Assembly: GCA_947501325.1 (NCBI GenBank) | Contig: CANMVC010000002.1 | Span: 992,001-1,056,000, forward strand | From: an uncultured Sphingomonadaceae bacterium | GTDB taxonomy: Bacteria > Pseudomonadota > Alphaproteobacteria > Sphingomonadales > Sphingomonadaceae | DNA: 64,000 nt | Reading direction: 5' to 3' | Shown: positions 29,105 to 43,523 of the stretch, one piece after another | How positions within the stretch are numbered: the stretch's first letter is position 1 | Layout of the letters: each line of letters begins with the position of its first letter | Program-made: the position numbers and the translations under genes | The notes under the pieces: model-generated | Database searches by the model: none | What the model was told of the DNA's origin: nothing | The model's input: the letters and a program-made list of their open reading frames with translations, nothing else

Positions 29105-29167
29105 GAATCTCCATACTGTATTGCCTTGATAATACAGTATGGAGAAGCCAGGTCAAGCTTGGCGCTT

Positions 29168-32344: not shown

Positions 32345-32498
32345 GATGGCGATTCCTTTAATTGCTTGATTAATATCTAGCTATCATAGGAGCACCGCAC
32401 GGTTCAATGATCGCCTTGTTGGAAATGAAAAAAAAATCTGAACTGCAAATGCGTACCGCGGATTCCGTAACGGCATACAAGCCAATTATCAGAATCAA

Positions 32499-32528
32499 TT
32501 GACGGCCAATTCGCGATGGGCCTATGTC
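32499..32528 (+). promoter_or_regulatory. Candidate promoter for the plus-strand catabolic operon
   Basis: TTGACG, an 18-base spacer and TATGTC lie 38 bases before the SDR start at 32566, in the 221-base divergent intergenic region. A reasonable sigma-70-like match on the -35, weak on the -10. Confidence 0.3.
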
Positions 32529-32565
32529 CTAGCCATAAAAAAATACAAAAACGGGAGCACGGCGG

Positions 32566-34927: not shown

Positions 34928-36229
34928 ATGGATTTTGATCTCACCGAAAAGCAGGAATATTGGCGCAATCAAGTACGTGAGCATATCGAGAATCACGTCC
35001 GTCCGCGCGTGGCAGATTACAAAGCTGAGGACGAAACCGGAGATCGCTGGAAAGTCATCCAGGTTGTTGAAGAAGAAAAAGCCAAGGCAAAAGAAAAAGG
35101 AATCTGGAACCTTTTTATGCCACCGGCGAACCCCAACCTCACACATATTGACGATGTGTTTCAATTTGAGGGTCCCGGACTCACCAACCTGGAATATGCC
35201 CTATGCGCCGAAGAAATGGGTCGCGTTGGATTTTCATCAGAAGTATTCAACTGCTCAGCACCCGACACCGGCAATATGGAAGTCTTTCATCGCTACGGCA
35301 CGCTCGAGCAGAAAGAACAGTATCTCCGCCCGTTGATGAACGGCGAAATCCGTTCTGCATTCCTCATGACAGAGCCTGCTGTGGCGTCTTCCGATGCTAC
35401 CAATATTGAAACTGCAATTGTTCGTGATGGCGACGAATATGTTATCAACGGCCGCAAATGGTGGTCATCTGGCCTTGGCGATCCGCGCTGCAAGATCGCT
35501 ATTGTTATGGGTAAAACCAGCTTTGAAGGCAGTCGCTATACACAACAATCCCAGATTTTGATGCCGACCGATGCGCCTGGTGTGAACATCATCCGGCATC
35601 TACCAGTCTTTGGTTATGACGATGCACCGCATGGGCACATGGAAGTGGAAATGAAGGATGTTCGCGTACCAGCATCAAATATTATTTTGGGCGAAGGCCG
35701 TGGTTTTGAGATCGCTCAAGGTCGCCTCGGGCCAGGGCGTATTCATCATTGCATGCGCACTATCGGTGTCGCGGAAGAGGCGCTTGAGAAAATGGTGAAA
35801 CGACTGCAATCGCGTGTAGCCTTCGGCAAACGCATTTCGGAACATAGTGTTTGGGACGAACGGGTCGCCCGCGCGCGGATCGACATCGACATGAGCCGCC
35901 TGCTGTGCCTGAAAGCGGCAGATATGATGGACAAGGTCGGCAACAAATATGCAAAAGCTGAAATCGCCATGATTAAAGTCCAAGCCCCCACGATGGCATT
36001 GAAAATCATAGATGATGCCATTCAAGCCCATGGCGGCGGCGGTGTCACCACTGACTTTGGGTTGGCTCAGGCTTATGCCCATCAACGGACTTTGCGGCTT
36101 GCCGATGGTCCAGACGAAGTCCACAATCGAACCATCGCAAAAATGGAATATGGTAAATATGCCGAAACTGCCGACGGCAGCAAAATGAAAGAAGAATTTT
36201 CTTCAGGCGATCTAGCAGTCACACGATAA
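34928..36229 (+). CDS. Acyl-CoA dehydrogenase of the ACAD10/11 type
   Basis: A 433-residue dehydrogenase whose middle and C-terminal part closely follow human ACAD10/11. [13 protein letters not shown] (about 185-197), [20 protein letters not shown], and [20 protein letters not shown] (about 257-276) are signature stretches of that family, not of ordinary FadE proteins. In bacteria such proteins (LvaC) act on phosphorylated 4-hydroxyacyl-CoA. The kinase needed to make that substrate is two genes downstream (37349-38410). The catalytic base is not assigned here. Confidence 0.9.
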
Positions 36230-36245
36230 GAGAGGGCCTAATTTC

Positions 36246-37331
36246 ATGAAAGCAGCAGTCCTGGTAGAGGCGGGTAAACCGCTCGAAATAGAAGAGGTTG
36301 TTATCTCCAAGCCGGGACCGCATGAGGTGCTGATCCGAACAGCAGCTTGCGGACTATGCCATTCGGATCTCCATTTTATTGATGGTAGCTATCCCCATCC
36401 ATTACCCGCAATACCGGGGCACGAGGCAGCCGGTATTGTCGAGGCCGTTGGCAGTGAAGTAAGAACTGTTGCCGTTGGTGATGCTGTCATCTCTTGTCTG
36501 TCAGCCTTTTGCGGGCATTGCGAATTTTGCGTCTCTGGCCGCATGTCGTTATGCTTGGGAGCAGACACGCGACGCGGTGCTGACGACGCGCCGCGCATTG
36601 CGCGTCCCAATGGAACACCCGTTTTCCAAATGCTAAACTTGTCAGCTTTTGCCGAGCAAATGTTGATCCATGAGCATGCTTGTGTACGCATTGACCCTGA
36701 CATGCCGCTTGATCGTGCGGCTGTCATTGGCTGTGCTGTTACCACCGGAGCTGGTACAATCTTCAATGCGTGCAATGTCACTCCCGGCGAGACCGTCGCC
36801 GTTGTCGGCTGTGGTGGCGTTGGACTTGCGACCATAAACGCTGCAAAAATCGCTGGAGCCAGTCGCATTATTGCCGCAGATCCGATTCCCGAAAAACGGG
36901 AACTGGCATTGAAACTTGGCGCTACCGATGTCGTCGATGCAATGGATGATGATGCCGCCGCTCAGATTGCAGAACTGACAAAGGGCGGAGTTGATCATGC
37001 CATTGAGGCTGTTGGCCGTCCGGGGGCCGGTGAATTAGCGGTTGGGTCATTGAAGCGGGGCGGGACAGCAACAATACTTGGCATGATGCCGTTAGATCAT
37101 AAGGTTGGCCTCGGTGCCATGGACTTGCTTGCCGGCAAAAAGCTGCAAGGCGTGTTGATGGGAGCGACCCGTTTTCCAGTCGATATTCCCCGCTTGGTAG
37201 ATTTTTATCTGCGCGGGCTTCTTGATTTGGATAGCATCGTTGCTGAAACGATCCCGCTGGAAAAGATTAATGACGGCTTTGAGAAAATGAAAAAAGGTGA
37301 TGCGGCGCGTTCCGTCATTACATTTGGATAA
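36246..37331 (+). CDS. Zn-dependent alcohol dehydrogenase
   Basis: A 361-residue medium-chain dehydrogenase. Catalytic zinc ligands in CGLCHSDLHF and PGHEAAGIVEAVG; structural zinc cysteines in CGHCEFCVSGRMSLC; cofactor motif VVGCGGVGLATINAAK. It oxidises an alcohol to an aldehyde or ketone. The order ACAD-ADH-kinase-SDR, with 16-23 base gaps, indicates one operon. The ADH probably handles the primary alcohol or hydroxyacyl intermediate of the same pathway, or the alcohol side product of phosphate elimination. Confidence 0.93.
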   Translation: MKAAVLVEAGKPLEIEEVVISKPGPHEVLIRTAACGLCHSDLHFIDGSYPHPLPAIPGHEAAGIVEAVGSEVRTVAVGDAVISCLSAFCGHCEFCVSGRMSLCLGADTRRGADDAPRIARPNGTPVFQMLNLSAFAEQMLIHEHACVRIDPDMPLDRAAVIGCAVTTGAGTIFNACNVTPGETVAVVGCGGVGLATINAAKIAGASRIIAADPIPEKRELALKLGATDVVDAMDDDAAAQIAELTKGGVDHAIEAVGRPGAGELAVGSLKRGGTATILGMMPLDHKVGLGAMDLLAGKKLQGVLMGATRFPVDIPRLVDFYLRGLLDLDSIVAETIPLEKINDGFEKMKKGDAARSVITFG

Positions 37332-37348
37332 TTAGTTAGAGGACCACA

Positions 37349-38410
37349 ATGAACCCACAAGAAGACATGACTGGTACCATGGCGGTACCGGATAAAGACA
37401 AATTGGACGAGGCCAGCCTACAGAAATGGATGGAAGCGAATGTCGAAGGTTTTGCCGGTCCCATGGATATTACAAAGTTCAAAGGTGGCCAATCTAACCC
37501 GACATATAAAATTGAAACTGCCGGTACGGACTATGTGCTGCGAAAGAAGCCATTCGGTAAGTTACTACCTTCAGCTCATGCCGTAGACAGGGAATTCAGA
37601 ATTATTGCTGGGCTATACCCGACGGGATTTCCTGTCGCGAAGCCATATGGCCTTTGTGATGACGATGATGTCATAGGCACTATGTTTTATATCATGGGTA
37701 TGGCTGATGGACGAACGTTTTGGGACGGCACTTTACCGGACATGGAGCCTAGTGAACGAAGAGCAATCTATTTTGAAATGATCGATACACTCGCCCAACT
37801 CCACAGCTACAACCCTGCTGAATTGGGCTTGGAAAAACATGGCAAGCCTGGCAATTATTGCGAACGCCAGATTTCTCGTTGGACACAGCAATATAAATTG
37901 TCAGAACTCGAAACCATTCCCGAAATGGATCAACTTATCGAATGGTTGACAAAAACTATTCCAGAGCAAAAGAGCTTTGGTATCGTTCACGGCGACTACC
38001 GCCTCGACAATATGATTTTTGCCCATGACGCGCCAAAAGTAATTGCAGTGCTGGATTGGGAGCTATCCACATTAGGTGACCCTATCGCAGATTTTGCCTA
38101 TTGGCTGATGGCTTATGAGATGGAACCAGAGGGCCGCAGCGGCCTGAAGGGTATTGATCTGGAAGCACTCGGCATTCCTTCACGCGAAGAGGCCATCGCG
38201 CGTTATTGCGAAAAGTCAGGTATTGATGACCTGCCGCCTATGGACTGGTATCTTGCATATAATCTTTTCCGGATTGCCGCTATTTTGCAGGGCATCCAGA
38301 AGCGTGTAGTAGATGGTACGGCAAACAGCGCAGCGGCCGCCGAAATGTCCGACCGCGTTACACCATTGGCGCAAGCCGGATGGGAAGCAGCAAAACGTGC
38401 CGGCGCCTAA
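37349..38410 (+). CDS. APH-family kinase (ACAD10/11 N-terminal-domain-like; LvaA-type)
   Basis: A 353-residue aminoglycoside-phosphotransferase fold kinase. The catalytic loop is [16 protein letters not shown] (HGD..DN, about 212-227) and the metal loop [17 protein letters not shown] (about 236-252); [13 protein letters not shown] is the N-terminal nucleotide-binding loop. Eukaryotic ACAD10/11 fuse this domain to an ACAD. In Pseudomonas LvaA phosphorylates 4-hydroxyacyl-CoA. Because the matching ACAD lies in the same operon, phosphorylation of a 4-hydroxyacyl-CoA is the best inference. AGAGGA lies before the ATG. Confidence 0.9.
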
Positions 38411-38433
38411 AACAGACTGACAGGAGCAGAAAC

Positions 38434-39228
38434 ATGGCGGACCTCAAAGATAAAGTAGCCATTGTCACCGGCGCGGGAAGCGGCATAGGTCGCGCATCGG
38501 CGCTACTTTTTGCCGAACATGGCGCGAAGGTCATCGCCAGTGATGTTACCGATGCGGTAGAAGAAACGGCCCAAGGTTCCGAAGGCAATATTATCGCCAT
38601 AAAGGCTGATGCCGGTTCTGAAGGTGATATCGAGATGCTGGTCGAAGCCGCTGAACAAAGGTTCGGCGATCTCCATGTTTTTTTCGCCAATGCCGGGATC
38701 GGTGGTGGATTTGAGGGTATTTTCGACAGCAGTGTTGCTGAATGGCAGGAAGTCCTGCGTGTTAACCTTATTGGGCCATTTCTTGCTGTGAAATATGCAG
38801 GAAAAGTCATTGCGGACAGCGGCCACGGCGGTTCGATAATCTGCACCGCCAGTGTCGCAGGCATCCGTTCCGGTGCAGGTGGGCCCGCTTATTCGGCGTC
38901 AAAGGCCGGGGTTATCAATCTTGTCAAAGTGGCCGCGCAACAATTTGCTACTGCCAACGTCCGCTGCAATGCCATTTGCCCGGGTATCACGGAAACCGGT
39001 ATGACCCAGTTTATCTACGACAAAGCGCGGGAGAAAGGCAAAGAGGACCGGCTTGGTTACCTTAATCCCTTGCGCCGCGGCGCCAACCCGATCGAGATGG
39101 CGGAAGTTGCCTTATTCTTGGCATCCGACCGGTCATCCTATGTCAACGGGCAGGCGATTGCGGTAGACGGGGGACTAAGTTCTTCGCACCCCGTCACCCG
39201 TCAGGAATTTGGCCGCACGGCCGTTTAG
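38434..39228 (+). CDS. SDR family oxidoreductase
   Basis: A 264-residue classical SDR, the last gene of the operon. Cofactor motif [22 protein letters not shown], Ser in CTASVAGI and YSASKAG, and C-terminal [14 protein letters not shown]. The ATG at 38434 follows AGGAG, 24 bases after the kinase stop. It probably acts as a 3-hydroxyacyl-CoA or alcohol dehydrogenase in the same pathway; three SDRs in two divergent operons suggest successive hydroxyl oxidations. Confidence 0.94.
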
Positions 39229-40908: not shown

Positions 40909-43320
40909 TCAGAAGCCCTTGCGAACGGTCAGGCCGAATGTTCTGGGCTGACCGACGCGGAAGGCCGTGCGTGCCCGTCCGCCGCGTTCCCGGTCGAAGG
41001 ACAGCAGCGCATTTTCATCAAACACGTTTTTCACGTAAATCGTCACATCCAGTTGGTTGTCGAGCTTCACACCCGCGCTGAGATTGACCAGTTCATAAGC
41101 TGGCAATTTCAAGTCAATAACCGTCGCCTCATTTCCGGTGGCTCCGCCAAAGGGCAGGCCCGAGACAAAGGAGCGCGGATTGTCGACCTGATCGCTTGGC
41201 TGTGTGAACCGGCTGCCAACATGCTGGGCCGAGGCACTTACAAAAGCTTCGCCGCTACCAATGGGCCAGCTATATGTCGCATCGCCGGAAATCTGGAACT
41301 TGGGTACCGAGGGAAGCCGATTGCCGTCTTCGACACCGCCCAATATATTGCCGGCACCATCGACAACGGTGGAATCAAATTCCGCCTCGAGTATGGACCC
41401 AGACAATCCGATATCCAGGCCGGTCAGCACTTCTGCCGAAAGCTCCCATTCCAGACCAAGTGTATGGGCTTCCGGAACGTTGAAGGTAATCCGTGAAGAA
41501 CAGGAACCTGCATCCAGGGTTACCTGCAAATCGCTGATATCGGTGTAGAAGGCGGCCGCATTAAAGGTGATACCACCTTTTTGCGCTTTCACGCCGACTT
41601 CGTAGTTCCACAGCGATTCATCGTCATAATCCTGGAATGAACCGAAGATCGCGGCGTCTTGCGGCGAACATAGCGGGATGTTCAGCGGATCGTTGACCCC
41701 GCCAAGGCGGAAGCCTTGCGATGCCTGCGCGTTGACCGAAATATCATCGGTTATGTCGTAATTGACCAACAGCCGCGGCGTGAAACCATCCGACGAGGTC
41801 ACATCGACCACGCCGCTATCGCCATTGGCGAACAGACCGCCCGTGGTGATCATCCGTGTTTCTTCGAAGTCATAATATCGGCCGCCTGCGGTGATTGTCA
41901 GACGGTCGGTAAGATCGAAACTGGCTTCCGCAAAGGCGGCAAATTGTTCAATATCATAGTCCAGATCGGAGTTGAACGGAGAGTCAACGCCAAACCCATT
42001 CGCCGTAACAGATGGTAAAGGCAGGCTGGTATCTGGATCGCCATCCCCATCGAGAAAGATCGATCGCGCTGTTTGTGCCGCATCATAACCGGGCGTTGGC
42101 AGGCGCTGGCGATATTCGCGCGTGACAGACGAATAGAAACCGCCGACAACCCACTGGAACCGGCTGTCATTATTGGAGGCAAACCGGACCTCTTGGGAAA
42201 TTTGCGACAGATCAGTCGTGTCACGCAAATTGGATGGCAACAATACCGCAGCATCCGGAAAACCGAGATCCACCGATACTGAACCGGTTAGCGCGCTCGC
42301 ATCACGGCTGACCAGAATTTCACGGTCAGTATAGCTGGTGACGGCAGTAAAGTTTACTGGGCCCAGATCCGCGTTAAACGTCAGATCGGCGATCATTGTC
42401 TGGTCTTCAAAGGCCTCGTCCAGCAACAAATATTGCTGCCGCTCGCCAAGCTGAATGTCCGGCCGGGTGGTGGTGAACGGATTGGCGAAGAGGTTGAACA
42501 CCTCCTGACGATTGAAGCCGTCAGACTTGATCTCCTGATAAACAATCCGCGGCGTAATCGTCATGCCTTCAACCGGCTGCAGCGTCAGCGCCAGACGGCC
42601 ACCATAGCGTTCACCACTGTTGATGTCTTCCTCCGACGCCCCGCCTTCACCCAAAGCCTCGATAAAGCCGCCAAACTGGGTGTAATAGCCGACGGCGCGA
42701 AGGGCCAGTTTGTCTTCGATCAGCGGTAGGTTGACCGCACCTTTCAAACTGTAACCGATATCATCGCCGTCGACGAGATTGATATCGCCTTCGGCAACGG
42801 CTTCGAGCTCATTCAGATTGGGTTGATTGGTGATGTAGCGAATGGTGCCACCAATGGAACCGGAACCAAACAGCGTACCTTGCGGACCGCGCAAGGTTTC
42901 GACACGGTTGAGATCAAACAGATCCAGGTCTGGCGTAAACAGCGATAATGAGATCACCGACTCATCAAGATAAACACCGACCTGTTCCTTCACCCCCGGC
43001 TGGTCGCGGACAATTTGTCCGGCCGATACGCCGCGAATGGCAACCTGGCTCTGGCCAGGGCCCAAATTCTGGATGGTAAGCCCGGCCACATTACGGGAAA
43101 TATCCTCCAGAGTGGTTGCTCCACTTTTTTGAATATCTGCCGCAGTCTGCGCGTTGATCGAGAAAGGAATATCCTGAAGATTGGCATCACGCTTGGTCGC
43201 CGTGACGATGATGATATTATCGTCCGATGCGCCTGCTTCATCCGCTTCTTGCGCCAGCGCGGGTTGCGCGGCAATTGCAAAAGACAATGCGGTTAGGCTT
43301 GCGAATTTTACTCGTTTCAT
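40909..43320 (-). CDS. TonB-dependent receptor (large)
   Basis: An 803-residue outer-membrane receptor from ATG 43320, which has GGAGAGGG about eight bases upstream; an ATG at 43338 lies before that ribosome site. Signal peptide to about AQPALAQ, TonB box-like IIIVTATKRDANLQD, plug (LEDISRNVAGLTIQNLGPGQ, VETLRGPQGTLFGSGSIGGT) and a barrel ending GLTVRKGF. The IRDQPGVKEQVGVYLDES-type and RITFNVPE regions fit sphingomonad receptors for plant- or polysaccharide-derived ligands, but the ligand is not assigned. No regulator or exporter neighbours it. Confidence 0.93.
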   Translation of the reverse strand: MKRVKFASLTALSFAIAAQPALAQEADEAGASDDNIIIVTATKRDANLQDIPFSINAQTAADIQKSGATTLEDISRNVAGLTIQNLGPGQSQVAIRGVSAGQIVRDQPGVKEQVGVYLDESVISLSLFTPDLDLFDLNRVETLRGPQGTLFGSGSIGGTIRYITNQPNLNELEAVAEGDINLVDGDDIGYSLKGAVNLPLIEDKLALRAVGYYTQFGGFIEALGEGGASEEDINSGERYGGRLALTLQPVEGMTITPRIVYQEIKSDGFNRQEVFNLFANPFTTTRPDIQLGERQQYLLLDEAFEDQTMIADLTFNADLGPVNFTAVTSYTDREILVSRDASALTGSVSVDLGFPDAAVLLPSNLRDTTDLSQISQEVRFASNNDSRFQWVVGGFYSSVTREYRQRLPTPGYDAAQTARSIFLDGDGDPDTSLPLPSVTANGFGVDSPFNSDLDYDIEQFAAFAEASFDLTDRLTITAGGRYYDFEETRMITTGGLFANGDSGVVDVTSSDGFTPRLLVNYDITDDISVNAQASQGFRLGGVNDPLNIPLCSPQDAAIFGSFQDYDDESLWNYEVGVKAQKGGITFNAAAFYTDISDLQVTLDAGSCSSRITFNVPEAHTLGLEWELSAEVLTGLDIGLSGSILEAEFDSTVVDGAGNILGGVEDGNRLPSVPKFQISGDATYSWPIGSGEAFVSASAQHVGSRFTQPSDQVDNPRSFVSGLPFGGATGNEATVIDLKLPAYELVNLSAGVKLDNQLDVTIYVKNVFDENALLSFDRERGGRARTAFRVGQPRTFGLTVRKGF

Positions 43321-43523
43321 AGCTGGGACCCTCTCCATATTTATTGCTGGCGATGACCTTTTTGGTCAAATGCACAACCGGAGCTTATTTGCTCACAACC
43401 GCAATAAATATGATTTTACAACTTAGTGAAGGCCAAAACTGTCTTTTTCCTATTAATTTTGACAGGAGCTGTTTTTCTGTGTCGAATTAGTCACAATTCG
43501 GACCCTTTTATCCCATCCACACA

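Follow-up and report, generated by a model that had tools for sequence, protein, structure and literature searches.

A Sphingomonadaceae gene cluster probably built on a two-gene ACAD10/11 reaction

The kinase and dehydrogenase compared with described systems

The mammalian proteins ACAD10 and ACAD11 combine a kinase part with an acyl-CoA dehydrogenase (ACAD) part, and for these and the Pseudomonas enzymes a mechanism of phosphorylation followed by elimination has been proposed (PMC11342911, PMC12440821). Pseudomonas LvaA and LvaC are encoded by separate genes (PMC11342911, PMC12440821), and a kinase and an ACAD from Burkholderia, likewise separate proteins, could stand in for the ACAD10 parts in vitro (PMC11342911). 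The DNA analysed here is a 64,000-base stretch from an uncultured Sphingomonadaceae bacterium (the window, G000:C2:992001-1056000; source genome 3.58 Mb, 99.98% complete). It encodes an ACAD10/11/LvaC-type ACAD (P0001; 34928..36229, + strand, 433 amino acids) and an ACAD11-type kinase of the APH fold (P0002; 37349..38410, + strand), with a gene for a Zn-dependent medium-chain alcohol dehydrogenase (Zn-ADH, P0003; 36246..37331, + strand; Pfam/NCBIfam search) between them. We consider this cluster to be probably a chromosomal Sphingomonadaceae catabolic locus built on the two-gene ACAD10/11 reaction. Since the pair is of the ACAD10/11 kind by score, tree and active-site residues, it is best read as removing a 4-hydroxyl by way of a 4-phospho intermediate. 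The original prediction treated the 'split' state of the pair as a surprise, which was an overstatement; separate kinase and ACAD genes are a state already known in bacteria, and it is in its content that the cluster differs.

Evidence for the identity of P0001 came from PDB scores, residues and a tree. In the PDB search, P0001 scored 434-436 bits against the ACAD11 chains 8v3u, 8v3v and 2wbi and 407 bits against 4hr3, a record named 'putative acyl-CoA dehydrogenase', and the next ACAD among the best 60 of 94 matches scored 134 bits. Its motif stretches begin at residues 257 and 390, and by a manual count on the alignment (chain numbering runs one below the published numbers) R266, R271, H274-C-M-R277 and D393 correspond to mouse ACAD11 R626, R631, H634-R637 and D753. 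Rashan et al. assign R626, H634 and R637 to the phosphate, R631 to substrate positioning, as in other ACADs, and D753 to catalysis (PMC12440821); all five of these residues for phosphate contact, substrate placing and catalysis are kept in P0001. In an ACAD tree of 29 rows, with neither LvaC nor ACAD10 among them, P0001 and mouse ACAD11 fell within a 16-row set (support 100/99) enclosed by a single set of all 19 motif-bearing rows (99/96). The two other ACADs of the cluster, ACADL and ACADS, and eight further ACADs of the same genome lay outside the motif-bearing set, several ordinary ACADs being long branches of unsure placement. The original prediction had called this ACAD a member of the ACAD10/11 type, a call that grouping with ordinary FadE proteins would have refuted. 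The phylogeny it proposed, in which P0001 joined mouse ACAD11 and the ten other ACADs did not, agrees with that call, as do the residues and the bit scores, and the predicted chemistry, in which a 4-hydroxyacyl-CoA is phosphorylated and then loses the phosphate, is well supported at family level.

P0002 matched the Pfam APH family (178 bits) and appears homologous over its whole length to ACAD11-type kinases. The nearest solved kinase was 3dxp (Reut_A1007; 390 bits), and the ACAD11 kinase domain scored 276-280 bits. The protein contains HGDYRLDN and keeps H214-G215-D216, N221 and D236, of which H214, D216, N221 and D236 were present without exception across 29 aligned kinase sequences. Fold matches to its structure model (pLDDT 90.4) were led by 3dxp (E 1.4e-34), followed by Rv3168, 25-hydroxy steroid kinase and ACAD11. 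A kinase tree of 34 rows grouped the 13 sphingomonad locus kinases together (99/100) and left mouse ACAD11 and 9o56 unplaced, both together on long branches (91/91). P0002 is the sole close kinase of its genome, where the two other matches were partial (30 and 35% identity), and its closest named relatives belong to Sphingorhabdus sp. EL138 and Parasphingorhabdus marina. Score and residues support its assignment as an ACAD10/11/LvaA-type kinase. A role as a resistance gene was rejected, the APH(3') model reaching 27 bits against a cut-off of 205. Some public records label such kinases aminoglycoside phosphotransferases, by which resistance surveys could be misled.

The pair shares with mammalian ACAD10 and ACAD11 the kinase and ACAD parts, the HCMR motif with its upstream Arg, the catalytic Asp and the kinase HGD and Asn. 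It differs in being divided over two genes with the Zn-ADH gene between them and other catabolic genes around them, and the HAD domain of ACAD10 is absent here. No described sphingomonad cluster and no further bacterial ACAD10/11 pairs were recognised by title or abstract start among the papers listed in searches of the openly licensed PubMed Central literature, which is a weak negative. By word find only, 'phosphotransferase' was absent from the main texts of two papers, one about Sphingobium that degrades tomatine and one about bile salts in Caenibius.

Cluster content and conservation across Sphingomonadaceae

Two gene series point away from a 221-base gap (32345..32565), which is presumed to carry promoters and an operator. 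The + strand series opens with a putative short-chain dehydrogenase/reductase (SDR) gene (SDR5, P0005; 32566..33402; Pfam), overlapping by 4 bases the gene for an MFS_2/GPH-type transporter (P0006; 33399..34826; Pfam/NCBIfam), whose GPH model score of 158 bits lies under the cut-off of 231. After 101 bases follow P0001, Zn-ADH, P0002 and a second SDR gene (SDR4, P0004; 38434..39228; Pfam), the start of which was judged from the sequence to be 38434 instead of the open reading frame start at 38380. Because the distances between these last four genes are just 16, 17 and 23 bases, they likely form one operon. The - strand series comprises ACADL (P0007; 31151..32344), ACADS (P0008; 29972..31108) and a third SDR gene (SDR9, P0009; 29168..29962; Pfam). 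Directly past SDR9, a scan for terminator-like sites found a 15-pair stem (29108..29145, - strand), possibly the end of this divergent operon; the region held 9 terminator-like sites against a shuffle mean of 11.8, and promoter-like sites were likewise not above shuffled expectation. This layout agrees with what had been predicted. The reading frames lie where they were placed, with HGDYRLDN and the ACAD motif present; Pfam and PDB matches confirm kinase, ACAD, Zn-ADH and SDR side by side, in a likely operon given the short gaps; and Pfam and NCBIfam agree on the two additional ACADs, the further SDRs and the GPH-type transporter nearby. A TonB-dependent receptor gene is also located close to the cluster (window 40909-43338, - strand).

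The best NCBIfam models for ACADL and ACADS were PimC (266.4 bits; cut-off 623.85) and PimD (246.7 bits; cut-off 652.7), and scores so far under the curated cut-offs rule out membership of either family. The top three PDB chains for ACADL were 6wy9, 6wy8_B and 4x28_A (150-152 bits), whilst ACADS was led by two isovaleryl-CoA dehydrogenases, with 6wy8_A third (126 bits). We take the 6wy9, 6wy8 and 4x28 chains to be steroid ACAD heterotetramers. The pair thus resembles PimC/PimD and ChsE-type two-subunit ACADs in its best models and, for ACADL, its best chains, but differs from them in falling well short of both cut-offs and in reaching at most 152 bits to the chains. ACADS is a candidate partner subunit of ACADL. 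Since the steroid-type chains reach such modest scores, isovaleryl-CoA dehydrogenases rank first for ACADS and the PimC/PimD cut-offs are missed, a bulky substrate for this pair is only a guess.

Of 99 family genomes, 84 had a kinase match (E <= 0.001, distant matches counted) and 80 an ACAD match (1e-40). Because kinase tallies include distant APH proteins, the number of kinases per genome allowed no conclusion on the number of 4-hydroxy pathways. We examined roughly 20 kb of DNA surrounding the kinase at 40 family loci from 40 genomes and 37 genera, located genes by tblastn and counted those with at least 38% identity as present. The loci were kinase-score ranks 2-42, a choice that leans to orthologues, and excluded the genome of the window itself and G018, in which the kinase lies near a contig end. 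ACAD11-type genes were present in all 40 loci, SDR9 and Zn-ADH in 39 each, and ACADL and ACADS in 36 each. The kinase was present in 39 by script and in 40 once the L126 kinase was included (listed at G051:C3:530374-531417 but missed by the locus script, with the overlap filter suspected). More variable were GPH (31), SDR5 (17) and SDR4 (10), accompanied in some loci by FadJ-like (10), beta-lactamase-fold hydrolase (8), third ACAD (7) and SMP-30 (4) genes. The HCMR motif with its upstream Arg and the catalytic Asp was found in 40/40 loci, the kinase HGD and DWE in all 39 that were read, and Zn-ADH sat between ACAD11 and kinase in 37/40, counting L126 through its separate kinase listing. Because the gene order recurs in relatives, the arrangement of the cluster is not due to chance. 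Genes that recur 3' of the kinase elsewhere in the family were rejected as cluster members, as nine translations looked like wrong-frame reading frames or housekeeping genes of no relation to the cluster.

Linkage followed kinase score. In 43 of the 46 genomes whose best kinase scored at least 467 bits, an ACAD11-type gene lay no more than 8 kb away on the contig and strand of the kinase, the remainder being G018 (short contigs), G059 (ACAD on the opposite strand, locus L149) and G074. Such a gene lay within 8 kb in just 4 of the 18 genomes with a best listed kinase of 402-456 bits (the linkage list takes no ACADs below 610 bits). Given this difference, the tight cluster is a property of this orthologue group, and weaker kinases are frequently unlinked. 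At 42 loci from other proteobacteria (L041-L083 minus the sphingomonad L056), many of them on short contigs, an ACAD11-type gene was present within the available DNA in 12 and absent from it in 30.

A minority of relatives carry hydrolase genes that the window cluster itself does not, the SMP-30 and beta-lactamase-fold calls each coming from a Pfam run on one member. A gene of the SMP-30/gluconolactonase family adjoins SDR9 on the same strand in L032, L033, L034, L038 and L039 (three named Novosphingobium and two Sphingomonadaceae metagenome-assembled genomes) and lies beside SDR9 in 4/40 family loci (L124, L140, L147 and L149). A beta-lactamase-fold hydrolase gene lies 3' of the kinase in 8/40 (L114, L115, L116, L118, L126, L130, L145 and L151), several with a FadJ-like gene. 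These hydrolases would fit a lactone or ester substrate, and prove nothing.

Related gene sets and further motif-bearing ACADs were also detected. In plasmid clusters of Croceicoccus marinus and Novosphingobium capsulatum, genes for a FadJ-like protein, a thiolase and MaoC accompany a related kinase and ACAD, and the latter cluster also has a ligase and a P450. The source genome had 21 ACAD matches, of which 13 were checked for the HCMR motif and three have it. The second such ACAD after P0001 (G000:C4:150606-151775; L158, L169:9399-10703) is 52% identical to it. DNA methylase and Z1 genes lie upstream of this second ACAD, and the genome's only close kinase, P0002, is on another contig. The third (G000:C1:1055432-1056547; L159, L171:9809-10978; 35% identity) contains AQVRLAPARLTHCMRW and RVYDGPTEVH. 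It belongs to a distant ACAD branch (~32-35% identity to P0001) that retains R..R..HCMR and the catalytic Asp; three members, this ACAD and two encoded on plasmids, formed one set in the 29-row tree (100/100), and the best PDB matches of its protein P0011 were 4hr3 and ACAD11 (185-194 bits), the next scoring 150. The two plasmid-borne members (L155:8808-9986 and L156:8766-9929), from Sphingobium sp. TomTYG65 and Pseudosulfitobacter pseudonitzschiae, directly precede a P0002-like kinase. Since distant-branch ACADs keep the motif and adjoin such kinases, kinase-coupled ACADs appear to extend beyond the close ACAD11 clade. Elsewhere on the source contig, L170:8701-11443 (G000:C2, about 77.8-80.5 kb) encodes APH then DUF6285 in one protein, beside an ACAD lacking the HCMR motif.

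Competing explanations for the cluster

Several observations weigh against a catabolic locus built on the ACAD10/11 reaction. Among the nine cluster genes, no Pfam match to an acyl-CoA ligase, hydratase, thiolase or lactonase was found. The ACAD10/11 reaction implies no role for the Zn-ADH that so regularly separates the two key genes. The cluster has exceptions, with ACADL and ACADS missing from L120, L121, L136 and L150, Zn-ADH missing from L130 and the genes rearranged in L149, and 14/18 genomes in the 402-456 bit class have no listed ACAD11-type gene near the kinase. As for the substrate, only a minority of relatives have the hydrolases, whose two folds each take many substrates, and the low scores of ACADL and ACADS to steroid-type chains, below isovaleryl-CoA dehydrogenases in the case of ACADS, leave a bulky compound a guess.

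Two alternatives deserve some, though limited, credence. In the first, the cluster would break down part of a steroid or terpenoid, either a side chain or a ring fragment, and the pair would remove a ring hydroxyl at the fourth carbon from the CoA carbonyl. The chains leading for ACADL, the third-placed 6wy8_A for ACADS and the similar gene sets on plasmids favour such a substrate, as does the resemblance of the kinase to 25-hydroxy steroid kinase (9fsg, 9ft5), which has an APH-type fold, likewise activates a hydroxyl as a phosphate and serves the ATP-dependent dehydration of a sterol alcohol (PMC8449060). However, that kinase, whose substrate is a 25-hydroxy sterol, scores just 44 bits with P0002 (18% identity in the fold match), the ACADL and ACADS scores are low, and a locus so widespread in the family is a poorer fit to a special substrate, so that we regard this explanation as tentative. 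The second, which we hold to be just as doubtful, is that the cluster clears 4-hydroxy fatty acids in general, formed when lipids are hydroxylated or peroxidised, a role proposed for ACAD10/11. The wide family conservation and the single close kinase in the genome speak for it, whereas the transporter and three SDRs would suggest imported food. Nor did the source genome match oleate hydratase (PF06100), which could have supplied such hydroxy acids, in a search that matched 4/14 control genomes, one of them over the cut-off.

It is rather improbable that the cluster is a levulinate-type (lva) operon degrading a short 4-oxo or 4-hydroxy acid by LvaA/LvaC chemistry. Both key enzyme kinds match, and in Pseudomonas putida as here separate kinase and ACAD genes stand in one series with an SDR gene, one SDR of the window being a possible counterpart of LvaD. 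Alpha-, beta- and gammaproteobacteria are reported to have homologues of LvaABCD, and lvaB is likewise missing from the levulinate cluster of P. citronellolis (PMC6692424), for which reason its absence here does not exclude the lva type. Nevertheless, no lvaB-, ligase- or regulator-like gene, including one of the sigma-54 type, was found by Pfam among the nine genes, with no room for lvaB between the key genes (lvaB, lvaE and lvaR were not searched elsewhere in the genome). A GPH-type transporter, Zn-ADH and the ACADL/ACADS pair are present instead, in a comparison of gene content, consistent with the original prediction that the gene set is unlike the known lva operon. Least credible of all is a chance pairing of an ordinary FadE-type dehydrogenase (P0001) with an unrelated APH kinase of the resistance type (P0002): the Pfam names for both proteins are generic and no NCBIfam model reached its cut-off for either, but tree, residues, linkage and the APH(3') score all stand against it.

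Proposed function and implications

In the ACAD10/11-type pathway that we favour, an acyl chain would be brought to the 4-hydroxyacyl-CoA stage and P0002, as its family and residues suggest, would phosphorylate the 4-hydroxyl with ATP. By analogy with ACAD10/11, P0001 would then eliminate the phosphate to yield a 2-enoyl-CoA, with its FAD reduced and re-oxidised in the cycle, R266, H274 and R277 gripping the phosphate and D393 serving as the base. Hydration, SDR oxidation and further rounds by the ACADL/ACADS pair could degrade the remainder. With the ACAD10 kinase part, product from the R substrate exceeded that from the S substrate about fourfold (PMC11342911). Speculatively, Zn-ADH and an SDR could invert a disfavoured isomer through the ketone, delivering the isomer that the kinase accepts, or these enzymes may oxidise other hydroxyls, and the GPH-type protein might import the substrate.

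An oxygenated acid or lactone of greater bulk than levulinate may be that substrate; the original prediction had named 4-hydroxy, gamma-lactone-derived or branched acyl chains, which stay candidates. Taken together, the SMP-30 gene, the beta-lactamase-fold hydrolase and the chain matches of ACADL and ACADS offer a hint of a bulky acid in lactone or ester form, each being open to other readings. Up to seven partner genes of the cluster would be tied to this one substrate. More broadly, and with considerable reserve, kinase-assisted ACAD dehydroxylation might be a broad bacterial strategy that spans at least two deep ACAD branches. Many Sphingomonadaceae might then possess a dedicated split-pair pathway that dehydroxylates lactone-forming, ring-bearing or branched acids, such as plant or algal terpenoid or steroid lactones, in which Zn-ADH and an SDR would set the stereochemistry for the kinase.

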